Positions 1,538 through 29,778 of a stretch of 64,000 nt of DNA are shown here, in pieces. The position numbers and the translations under genes were made by a program. The DNA is from Neobacillus sp. YX16 (GTDB lineage Bacteria > Bacillota > Bacilli > Bacillales > Cytobacillaceae). How positions within the stretch are numbered: the first letter of the stretch is position 1; each line of letters begins with the position of its first letter. Below the pieces are notes generated by a model, which was not told the DNA's origin, did no database searches, and worked only from the letters and a program-made list of their open reading frames with translations. The DNA lies in contig NZ_CP126115.1 in NCBI RefSeq assembly GCF_030123505.1, positions 3,548,001 to 3,612,000 on the forward strand, written 5' to 3'.

Positions 1538-2785
1538 CTAATTTGTGCTTTCTTTTACTAATGGTTTACCAGCTTCAAGTAGAACCTTACTGCCAACCAA
1601 GAAGAATCCTTGGATAAACATTAGAATTCCAGTCCCAATCAGCAGCCATTCTATGTCGATAATGTCTGAGATTGGTCCAAATATGAGCATTCCTAGTGGC
1701 ATCATGGAGGTTGAAATCATTCCTAGTACACCAAAGACTCTTCCTAAATAATCTCCCTCCACTTTTTCTTGTAACAGTACAGTGGATGGTGTGTTAAAGA
1801 TTGGCATCGCCACACCTACGAATCCCATGAACACGATATAAATCCAAAAGTTAGGGATAATGCCTAGCGCAAACGTACAGGCACCCATTACTAGGGCAGC
1901 TAATGTCATCGTATGAATCTTGTTTTTAAAGCCACCCCACGATGCCATAAGCACACCACCTAGCATCATTCCAATTGAAAAGGTAATTTCGATGGCAGTT
2001 AATCGCCATACATCGTCACCGAAGCTGCGTGTGACCTGAAGTGGAGTTAGAAAAGCGACCGGTGCAGCTAATACAAAGAAAAACGCAAAGAACGCAAAAA
2101 ACTTTTTAACAAAAGCGTGGTTTTGAATATAGATAAAGCCTTGTTTTAAGTCGCTGAAATAACTGGTCGTTTGCTTTTCTGCAGCTTTTGCATGGATTGG
2201 AATATGCAAAAAAGTGAGTAAGATAAAAACAGCGATTGCTGCAGTGATTACATCTATAAAGAAGATTGCTTCCATTGAAGCCATTGTCAGCAATGCCGCA
2301 CTGACCATAGGCGCTACAAGCATGATTAGCGCCTGTATACTCCCATTTGTTCCGTTCACCTTTGTCAGTTTATCCTCTGGTACAAGCTGAGGAAGAATAG
2401 CCCCAACCGCTGGACCTTGAATTCCAGTTCCTATCGCCCGGATGGCTGACATAAGAAATAATAACCAAAGTGCCTCGTACCCCATTAAAAACAAGATGGC
2501 TAAAATTAAAGTTGAAATGGCTATCAAAGAATCTGATAGGATAATCAGTATTTTTCTGTTGTAGCGATCTGCCCATACTCCTGCAAATGGAGAAAGAAAA
2601 AAGGTTGGGACAAAGCCGCAGATGATGGAAATCGTCATCATCACACCCGACTGAGTGTTCAAGGTGATATACCACATAATTGCATACTGAACCAACGCTG
2701 ATCCAAAAAGCGATATAGTTTGACTCCCTAAAAAGAGAATCGTATTCCTCTTCCAATTATTCATTTCTTGTTTTGGTGTTTCCAT
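1538..2785 (-). CDS. MFS drug efflux transporter, DHA3 (macrolide efflux, Mef-like) family
   Basis: A 415-residue, 12-TM proton-driven efflux protein. Seen: the MFS motif A region GVWADRYNRK after TM2 and hydrophobic segments typical of DHA3 antiporters such as Mef proteins. The ATG at 2785 is preferred over an upstream GTG at 2794, because the only Shine-Dalgarno-like GGAC touches that GTG and is correctly spaced from the ATG. The long leader (2795-3070) carries a 14-codon peptide closely like the ErmD leader and an intrinsic terminator, so expression is probably induced by ribosome-stalling macrolides. Efflux of macrolides is an inference from the family plus this leader; other drugs are possible. 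Confidence 0.88.
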   Translation of the reverse strand: METPKQEMNNWKRNTILFLGSQTISLFGSALVQYAIMWYITLNTQSGVMMTISIICGFVPTFFLSPFAGVWADRYNRKILIILSDSLIAISTLILAILFLMGYEALWLLFLMSAIRAIGTGIQGPAVGAILPQLVPEDKLTKVNGTNGSIQALIMLVAPMVSAALLTMASMEAIFFIDVITAAIAVFILLTFLHIPIHAKAAEKQTTSYFSDLKQGFIYIQNHAFVKKFFAFFAFFFVLAAPVAFLTPLQVTRSFGDDVWRLTAIEITFSIGMMLGGVLMASWGGFKNKIHTMTLAALVMGACTFALGIIPNFWIYIVFMGFVGVAMPIFNTPSTVLLQEKVEGDYLGRVFGVLGMISTSMMPLGMLIFGPISDIIDIEWLLIGTGILMFIQGFFLVGSKVLLEAGKPLVKESTN

Positions 2786-2875
2786 AGAATACACGTCCTA
2801 TAAATTATTTTTATTTGTCTAGTATCGGTCAAGGACATTTTTAATAGAAACTGAAATTACATCTAAAAAAAGACA

Positions 2876-2906
2876 GCAAAAAAGAGGGCAGAATCGTCCC
2901 CTCTTG
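2876..2906 (-). terminator. Transcription attenuator in the leader of the MFS efflux gene
   Basis: On the minus strand an AAGAGGG / CCCTCTT stem with a 10-base loop is followed by a run of six T. It lies between the leader peptide (2997-3041) and the efflux gene start at 2785, so it would stop transcription before the gene. Upstream segments can compete: 3040-3054 (RBS and start of the leader peptide) is complementary to 2926-2940 apart from one bulge. This is the expected geometry for antibiotic-responsive attenuation. Confidence 0.75.
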
Positions 2907-2996
2907 TTTTACATCACCGTAAAATAAAGGTTTCCCTAAAAATAGACAGACCACTCCCGTCACTCTGCAAAAAGCAAAGTCCTTGAACCTATTCAA

Positions 2997-3041
2997 TTAA
3001 CAGTTCAAAGCAGGAAATCGTAGTCTCATAGACGCAGTCAA
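2997..3041 (-). CDS. ErmD-type macrolide-stalling leader peptide (14 aa)
   Basis: The short ORF reads MTASMRLRFPALNC, starting at TTG with GGAGG 8 bases upstream (3050-3054). From memory, the ErmD leader is MTHSMRLRFPTLNQ; 11 of 14 residues agree, including MRLR, the known macrolide-dependent arrest motif (R-L-R, a '+x+' motif). It is the first ORF after a good promoter and precedes an intrinsic terminator and a drug efflux gene. The likely role is to sense macrolide-bound ribosomes: stalling near Leu7/Arg8 would refold the leader and allow read-through. It is too short for normal gene callers. Confidence 0.8.
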   Translation of the reverse strand: MTASMRLRFPALNC

Positions 3042-3074
3042 AGGGAAAACCTCCATTTCTTATAAGTTAAATTT

Positions 3075-3103
3075 AGTTTAGCATATCCGTTAACTAATAT
3101 CAA
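3075..3103 (-). promoter_or_regulatory. Sigma-A promoter of the leader peptide / MFS transcript
   Basis: On the minus strand, TTGATA (3098-3103), a 17-base spacer and TAAACT (3075-3080). The predicted start at about 3068 gives a leader of roughly 280 nt before the MFS ATG. Confidence 0.6.
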
Positions 3104-3180: not shown

Positions 3181-3500
3181 TCACCGCAGTGACAGGCTGT
3201 CTCTGCCTGTCACGAGGCGCTTCGCTTTCCGCAGGCGGTTCGGGGAAGCCTGTCTAGCTGCAGCGCCTAGCCCCTCGAGTCGCTTCGGTCCCAACGATGA
3301 AGTCAAAGAACGACTTCATCGTCAGGCCCTCCAGCGCTTGTCGGGGCTGTACAAGGCGCTTCCGCTTTTCCTACTCCTCGGCGCTAAGTGATAAGCGGGG
3401 TCTCCCCTGTCCCGTCCTCCTGCAGGACACTGATTTTTACATCCTCGAATCCGCCCACGCACGAAGAAAATGCGATAGCATTTTCGAGGAGTCTCGCGCC
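3181..3500. repeat. GC-rich cluster of palindromic repeat elements (noncoding)
   Basis: A block clearly richer in GC than its flanks, with no credible gene. It contains several inverted repeats: 3189-3213 (9-bp arms GTGACAGGC, 7-base loop), 3294-3322 (ACGATGAAGTC arms) nested in a longer imperfect fold from about 3265 to 3362 (AGCGCC...GGCGCT and AGCCCC...GGGGCT), and 3466-3485 (GAAAATGC, GATA loop) inside a TCCTCGA/TCGAGGA stem. Phrases such as CAGCGCCTAGCCCCTCGAG are familiar as dispersed repeats in many Bacillaceae genomes. The central fold seems to interrupt a second repeat type, which suggests one element inserted into another. Open frames across it are by-products of GC content. Confidence 0.65.
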
Positions 3501-3552
3501 TTCCGCACAAATCAACAAGGTGCCAAAATCAGTAATTACATACCCCTGCCTT

Positions 3553-29518: not shown

Positions 29519-29778
29519 TAAAAAAGCCTATCTTCTCATAAGAGACGATAGGCTTTGCCTTCGTGGTACCACTCTTTTTGGTTCGAATTAGAAACAAACG
29601 AACCCACTTTAAGACTTAGTGACGGGGGTCAACCGTTAAGACCTACATATCAGCCTTACCACTCCTGGGCGAGTTGGGGAATTTATTGACTGTCTTTCAC
29701 CATCCGACAGCTCTCTGGGCAATAAATATTCCTTATTACTCCCAATCATTGTGTTTTCATTATTTGAATTTTATTATT
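29519..29778 (-). ncRNA. T-box riboswitch, leucine (CUC specifier), upstream of leuA
   Basis: On the minus strand: a Stem I with AGTA and AGAGAGCTGTCGG...GGTGAAAGACAG apical motifs; specifier loop CCAACTCGCCC with CTC (complement at 29671-29673), a leucine codon; the T-box sequence AGAGTGGTACCACG (29562-29575); and a terminator AAAGCCTATC / GATAGGCTTT plus T6 (29519-29556). Uncharged tRNA-Leu would stabilise the antiterminator and let leuA be read. The predicted RNA begins near 29778. Confidence 0.92.

Follow-up and report, generated by a model that had tools for sequence, protein, structure and literature searches.

The leader region ahead of a DHA3 MFS transporter gene in Neobacillus sp. 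YX16 carries a conserved RNA which, judged from covariance models, is homologous to the leaders of Erm, ABC-F, Mph, HflX, RlmA and LmrB genes, and the locus is very probably a transcription attenuator that responds to macrolides and controls a putative macrolide exporter. This function is assigned by homology; the locus has an ErmD-type leader and belongs to a wide RNA family. What is new here is the conserved RNA around the leader; the link between such a peptide and a pump was already known, because papers on MefEL and on the RLR signature had been published. The window, meaning the whole stretch of DNA analysed, comprises 64,000 nt (NZ_CP126115.1, 3548001-3612000, assembly GCF_030123505.1) of the single-contig, 6.23-Mb genome of this soil bacterium, and the features under study lie on its minus strand (Table 1).

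Table 1. Features of the leader, its RNA and the efflux gene, in positions of the window.
Feature	Position	Strand	Details
Promoter-like site	3103..3075	-	-35 TTGATA (3103-3098), 17-base spacer with TGn, -10 TAAACT (3080-3075); from a consensus scan
Conserved RNA element (R1/R2 match)	3061..2937	-	Leader RBS, RLR ORF, hairpins C and D, helix B:E
Arm A (RBS region)	3058..3043	-	Partner of arm F, 2936-2921
Shine-Dalgarno GGAGG of leader	3054..3050	-	8 bases before the start codon
Leader ORF	3041..2997	-	TTG start, 14 codons, MTASMRLRFPALNC, stop 2999-2997
Arm B, AGACUAC	3026..3020	-	Codons Arg6-Leu7 and first base of Arg8; pairs with E
Hairpin C	3010..2981	-	CUUUGAAC (3010-3003) with GUUCAAGG (2988-2981); stop codon in loop
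Hairpin D	2979..2963	-	CUUUGC (2979-2974) with GCAGAG (2968-2963)
Arm E, GUGGUCU, then GUCUAUUUUU	2954..2948	-	Pairs with B
Arm F	2936..2921	-	Pairs with A; the 3' part can alternatively pair with the terminator 5' side in Neobacillus
Intrinsic terminator	2905..2878	-	AAGAGGG/CCCUCUU, U6 tail
Possible hairpin over efflux-gene RBS	2838..2793	-	AUGUCCU (2838-2832) with AGGACGU (2799-2793); predicted
DHA3 MFS transporter gene	2785..1538	-	415 aa from ATG 2785; GTG 2794 in frame

The hidden 14-codon ORF with GGAGG 8 bases upstream that a first-pass annotation had proposed was recovered on the minus strand, with a TTG start rather than ATG; an in-frame ATG upstream of it, at 3056, lacks an RBS. As that annotation had stated, the peptide agrees with the ErmD/ErmK leader MTHSMRLRFPTLNQ at 11/14 residues, with Arg-Leu-Arg (RLR) at the same positions, 6-8, and Leu-Asn near the end (ErmDL sequence as printed in PMC10314930; erm(K) leader in the accessible text of PMC4335068). 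These three residues are encoded by AGA CTA CGA (3026-3018, minus strand). As read from its sequence, the short ORF has the Shine-Dalgarno (SD) sequence and the Arg/Lys-x-Arg/Lys at the stall position by which short ORFs of the +x+ macrolide-arrest leader class are recognised. In A2, an alignment of the untranslated regions (UTRs) of 45 MFS genes of the closer set, four of the five columns of the leader GGAGG are invariant and the A column is above 90%.

In promoter scans of related UTRs, the best site placed its -10 box 15-18 bases ahead of the aligned UTR in 37/45, with TGn in 35 of these 37, and scored at least 9 in 29/45 against 8.1 expected from shuffles. Between this leader promoter and an upstream ketopantoate-reductase-like gene sits a G+C-rich dispersed repeat (3258-3290, within about 3190-3530), of which the genome holds 31 core copies with at most three mismatches. 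We think it very improbable that this strain keeps the leader only as a relic and transcribes the pump from a promoter beyond the terminator: a candidate at 2832-2804 on the minus strand (TTGACC-17-AATAAT) has 10/12 consensus bases, but transcription from it would start on the MFS RBS, its TTGACC overlaps a possible RNA arm, and the leader peptide and its pairs are maintained among Neobacillus relatives. In the attenuator that we favour, the distance between the leader stop and the MFS start (2785) is 211 bases, and the 281-base UTR has a folding energy z of -3.5.

The claim that a DHA3 efflux gene, and no erm methylase, lies behind the attenuator held. Its product scored above the cut-off for Pfam MFS_1, and in NCBIfam it reached 236 bits for TIGR00900, 228 of 800 for Mef(B) and 206 of 675 for Mef(A), all below the curated cut-offs, on which we rejected a Mef identity of the pump. 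Its nearest named relatives occur in Bacillus sp. 7884-1 (99%) and, at 94-96%, in Neobacillus species. We fetched 80 named loci of the same MFS family (upstream sequence incomplete in L002, L015 and L022) and detected an R-[LIVMF]-R leader with an RBS of at least 5/6 within 1 kb upstream in 33 of them, compared with 1/80 downstream, 0/80 on each reverse strand and 0-3/80 in five shuffles. With an RBS of at least 4/6, the counts were 37/80 upstream vs 5 downstream, 1 and 1 on the reverse strands and 2-11 in shuffles. On a tree of 78 of the MFS proteins, leaders occurred in 32/47 rows of one branch and 3/31 of the other, and this distribution took 11 changes vs 30.6 in shuffles; the leader labels on this tree predate the RNA model, and five rows labelled as having none (L012, L033, L053, L055 and L061) carry the RNA element.

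The covariance model R1, described below, found the element in 38/80 MFS loci (39 matches in 85 sources; L298, among these matches, lies on a Niallia megaplasmid). Related genomes with the pump and without the peptide had been named as grounds for rejecting the sensor, and such relatives do exist in part: 42/80 loci have no R1 match (E ≤ 0.1), comprising 28 of the 31 rows of one branch, 12 of the 47 of the other and two loci with incomplete upstream sequence. Two Desulfosporosinus loci (L025 and L046) have an RLR leader without an R1 match; these leaders, near MFS genes, are 8 residues long and end right after RLR (MSAFWRLR and MTAAIRLR), as in mef(E). A distant MFS relative annotated beside hflX on a Paraclostridium bifermentans plasmid (L299) gave only noise-level R1 matches. 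A strict leader pattern was present in 39/193 genomes of the family and 11/397 of the order, with no matches in controls. MFS was the next gene in 29 of the 30 family loci examined that had a leader, the remaining one being cut by a contig end, and the MFS frame was short in L143 and L147. Nine new loci from the order had an MFS gene in eight cases and a macrolide 2'-phosphotransferase (Mph) gene in one (L164). A looser RLR pattern, found across the genus in 58/61 genomes, was discarded, since its reversed control matched in many genomes too.

The proposed structure joins arm A to arm F and arm B to arm E, and includes hairpins C and D and the terminator. Both structural elements that the first-pass annotation had placed here are present: the RBS and start region is complementary to a segment that it put at 2926-2940 and that we locate at 2936-2921, where it forms a helix in the predicted fold, and an intrinsic terminator stands between leader and gene, at 2905-2878. 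The terminator went unlisted in a pattern scan, whose limit its 10-base loop exceeds, but is paired in the predicted fold. Across A2, 92.2% of 1741 cells were paired, and covariation was 0.150 vs 0.115 when shuffled (0/500) and at most 0.077 when slid. Pairs changed on both sides numbered 10 vs 6.6 in shuffles (22/500 as high), and A:F, B:E, hairpin D and the terminator each had at least one. The A:F helix had 89.9% of its cells paired, with U-A replaced by C-G at columns 24:139 in 7 sequences, and its pair 14:148 was broken in 26 sequences.

Arg8, whose codon contributes to both peptide and helix, was kept in all 45 A2 rows, as AGA in 30 and CGN in 15. AGA faces U in 30 rows, CGA faces G in 8, and CGN faces U and is unpaired in 7, such that the pair is formed in 38/45 rows. 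As proof of covariation, however, the Arg8 codon is weakened, the compensated change (CGA with G, 8 rows) being confined to the Neobacillus clade. Further downstream, the predicted hairpin over the MFS RBS may possibly add a translational layer of control. By visual inspection, and in some of the 45 UTRs only, this hairpin reads GUCCU/AGGAC in the window and GACCU/AGGUC in Psychrobacillus, Domibacillus and Paenisporosarcina.

The single Mph locus led to other Mph genes, for which 55/299 genomes of the order gave a match; an RLR leader with an RBS of at least 5/6 was present in 8 of the 30 Mph loci examined. The Mph leaders and those of divergent MFS genes are embedded in the same surrounding RNA as the window leader, with a shared core in the order RBS, RLR ORF, hairpin C around the stop codon, hairpin D, GGGAUNRGUCUGYC and a U-rich sequence. 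From 45 of 75 MFS and Mph leader cores we made an alignment, A3, as the basis of the covariance model R1. In A3, 88.3% of 908 cells were paired, and covariation was 0.222 vs 0.182 shuffled (0/500) and at most 0.078 slid. Its B:E helix was paired in 86.3% of cells, with the GUCUG of arm E invariant; the first five pairs were formed nearly always and the last two were broken in 19 and 21 of the 45 sequences. Searches with R1 gave 114 matches in 100/398 genomes of the class, spread over 53/146 genera, and matches in 12/299 genomes of the phylum, four of the 12 in the window's own class. The window, whose sequence is in the R1 training set, scored 131.8 bits (E 1.6e-27; the covariance-model E-values come from a shortened calibration).

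A second model built without MFS or Mph sequences also recognised the window. The alignment behind it, A4, holds 57 elements that precede ABC-F, HflX, Erm, RlmA and LmrB genes only; it was fitted with R1 and so leans to the R1 structure, and 16 of its 21 pairs changed on both sides, in 96 such cells vs 32 in shuffles (0/500 as high). Its covariation score was 0.280 vs 0.151 shuffled (0/500) and at most 0.089 slid. Hairpin C was paired in 89.0% of A4 cells, with changes on both sides in 7/8 pairs, hairpin D in 96.7%, with such changes in 6/6 pairs, and B:E, the weakest A4 helix, in 75.3%. The resulting model, R2, which has 17 Erm loci in training, gave the window a score of 112 bits (E 2.1e-23), compared with 12.9 bits for the next best site in the 64 kb. 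The proposal that an ErmD-type sensor has been attached to an efflux pump is thus supported by R1 and R2 through homology of the whole RNA, beyond the peptide.

We found no known Rfam family to which this RNA belongs: Rfam 15 has no family covering the element in the window at gathering score, and ten R1 loci searched at E ≤ 1 had six matches listed, none covering the element. The sole Rfam gathering match in the window is a T-box leader at 29538-29758 on the minus strand (125 bits). Among the openly accessible papers listed by literature searches, we recognised none that treats RLR leaders as one RNA family.

To characterise the genes behind the element, we examined 90 of the 114 R1 matches in the class (all 90 re-found), took the longest ORF starting within 700 bases downstream, clustered these ORFs, and typed them with NCBIfam (E ≤ 1e-50 for ABC-F, E ≤ 1e-20 for the 70 other members). 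The partners were ABC-F (20), HflX (17), Erm (17), Mph (13), Mef-like MFS (10), RlmA-like (6), LmrB-like (3) and other genes (4). All 20 members of the ABC-F cluster matched the ABC-F ribosomal-protection family and 19 matched the Msr family; in the non-ABC-F set the HflX, Erm, Mph and Mef-like MFS members were typed at their threshold, and two members each of the RlmA cluster (L210 and L246) and the LmrB cluster (L228 and L272) were typed. Seven families, typed or clustered, thus account for the partner in 86/90 loci; the scores are mostly below allele-level cut-offs, and the types are therefore family assignments. The remaining four partners were a Tet(A/B/C)-like MFS gene (L277), a short-chain dehydrogenase (L279) and two genes with no family (L203 and L213). 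L277 and L279 fall outside the usual partners, and no leader was recognised at L279. A short [RK]x[RK] ORF behind an SD was present in 76/90 loci, as RLR (55), RFR (5), KFR (5), RIR (4), KLR (3), RVR (3) or RSR (1); weak ABC-F matches (L281-L283) lack a +x+ leader.

Erm, Mph and Msr-type ABC-F proteins act on or against macrolides, and these are the commonest typed partners besides HflX. This favours a macrolide sensor over one that is real but responds to another ligand or serves a pump with another substrate, be it lincosamides, ketolides, tylosin-like or other tunnel/PTC drugs, with the MFS protein exporting something else. We consider this alternative possible, though on balance unlikely: LmrB-like and HflX genes, and in one case a Tet-like MFS gene, also lie behind the element, and the MFS protein shares no more than about 30-33% identity with Mef(A)/Mef(B), but leader residues 1-8 are identical to MefEL as given in the accessible text of PMC4335068. 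In related systems, the accessible text of PMC6310831 connects Listeria hflXr and its RLR leader with lincomycin as well as erythromycin, and that of PMC6851288 reports that the Bacillus subtilis tlrB leader (RYR) responds to tylosin and not to erythromycin.

The macrolide-responsive attenuator that we prefer resembles several known systems. It differs from ErmD/ErmK in its effector, an efflux pump, and in its TTG start codon, and what R2 shows is RNA homology with the Erm-family loci of related genomes rather than with the erm(D)/erm(K) type genes; erm(K) itself is described as transcriptionally attenuated (PMC4335068, accessible text). According to the same text, macrolides induce mef(E)/mel by attenuation in a way that requires MefEL (MTASMRLR), which is compared there with the erm(K), msr(A) and msr(C) leaders, so that an RLR leader before the mef(E)/mef(A) pump is known. 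That system shares with the window the first eight leader residues, a pump of the same broad MFS group and the transcription attenuation that we propose here, but MefEL stops at Arg8 whereas the window leader runs 14 codons, and the MFS proteins are about 30% identical. In the 5' region of mef(A) from a streptococcal phage (L165), whose leader we confirmed, R1 gave no match at the leader with filters off and R2 gave none at E ≤ 1; a close RNA kinship with the mef(A) UTR is supported by neither model.

Other likenesses rest on published features. The hflXr/rli80 locus of Listeria has a 14-residue RLR leader like that of the window, together with a terminator/antiterminator, and the hflXr paper, in its accessible text, calls RLR a signature of macrolide-resistance leaders (PMC6310831). 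Its effector differs from the window pump, but the YX16 genome holds a second copy of the element (568503-568627; L226:204-328), with leader MKYRRLRFQILNR, before an hflX gene. Similarly, tlrB (yxjB) of B. subtilis has a +x+ leader (MIIQFIRYR), a terminator and an SD hairpin, and differs in having RYR at the peptide end and in being tylosin-specific (PMC6851288, accessible text); RlmA/TlrB-like genes follow the R1 element in 6/90 loci.

By analogy with ErmDL and MefEL, we infer that the window leader senses macrolides by stalling. Without drug, the leader would be translated to its stop, B:E would pair, and the terminator would end transcription. If a macrolide occupied the tunnel, the ribosome would stall, Leu7 being in the P site and Arg8 in the A site, cover arm B and release E, perhaps also F; the freed strand would pair with the terminator 5' side, and with the terminator blocked RNA polymerase would continue into the efflux gene. 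The position on arm B follows that of ErmDL, in whose stall the P site holds Leu7 and the A site Arg8 (PMC8298421, accessible text).

The resting structure is supported, and the switch itself we infer. It had been suggested that the RBS complementarity forms a ribosome-driven switch; the pairing is indeed conserved, but folding with a strict footprint breaks neither A:F nor the terminator. With a footprint of +4..+34 the fold of the window copy retains both, which counts against a simple switch in which a ribosome at codon 7-8 frees 2926-2940. At equilibrium the terminator persists in every state tried in the window fold, and an F:G antiterminator reaches 0.7 only with the RBS also covered, and only before the terminator is complete. 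Pairing of F with the terminator was rejected as a general mechanism, reaching at least 3 pairs in 27/45 UTRs and being mostly weak outside Neobacillus. Arm E pairs with the terminator 5' side at a mean of -9.85 kcal/mol vs -6.9 for shuffled E (23/70 loci at or below 5%), but it pairs as well with terminators of other families (mean -9.95 kcal/mol), so this preference may be one of composition; in the window copy the E:terminator pairing is no better than shuffles (0.32 of shuffles as low).

With a clear antiterminator missing in silico, a stalled ribosome might instead mainly protect the transcript or open the hairpin predicted over the efflux RBS. The stability of mef(E) mRNA is leader-dependent (PMC4335068, accessible text), and in the accessible text of PMC6851288 tlrB has a terminator and an SD hairpin, with no overlapping antiterminator identified. 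We nevertheless rate this route as unlikely, because the terminator kept between element and gene is hard to account for unless antitermination takes place: one of -10 kcal/mol or lower follows arm E in 59/76 R1 loci, compared with 11-14 after dinucleotide shuffling and 31 after plain reversal of the sequence.

RLR leaders have hitherto been described gene by gene (erm, mef, msr, hflXr). The shared RNA unites them in one family, and suggests why the Arg codons and their flanking bases stay together. We consider it fairly probable that a single old RNA sensor, made up of a leader peptide and a covarying scaffold of two hairpins, acts as an exchangeable control cassette before seven or more unrelated macrolide, lincosamide and ribosome-protection gene families in Bacilli and some other Bacillota, that the RLR codons are both arrest signal and switch strand, and that the presence of this sensor marks the genes that follow it, this DHA3 family among them, as resistance genes. 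The element can then be used as a search tool, a gene behind the RNA being a candidate resistance or ribosome-protection gene. It also suggests that drugs induce the pumps of an MFS family that is chromosomal, uncharacterised and spread from Neobacillus to Desulfoscipio, and that a pump and an HflX protein may be induced in one cell through the same sensor.
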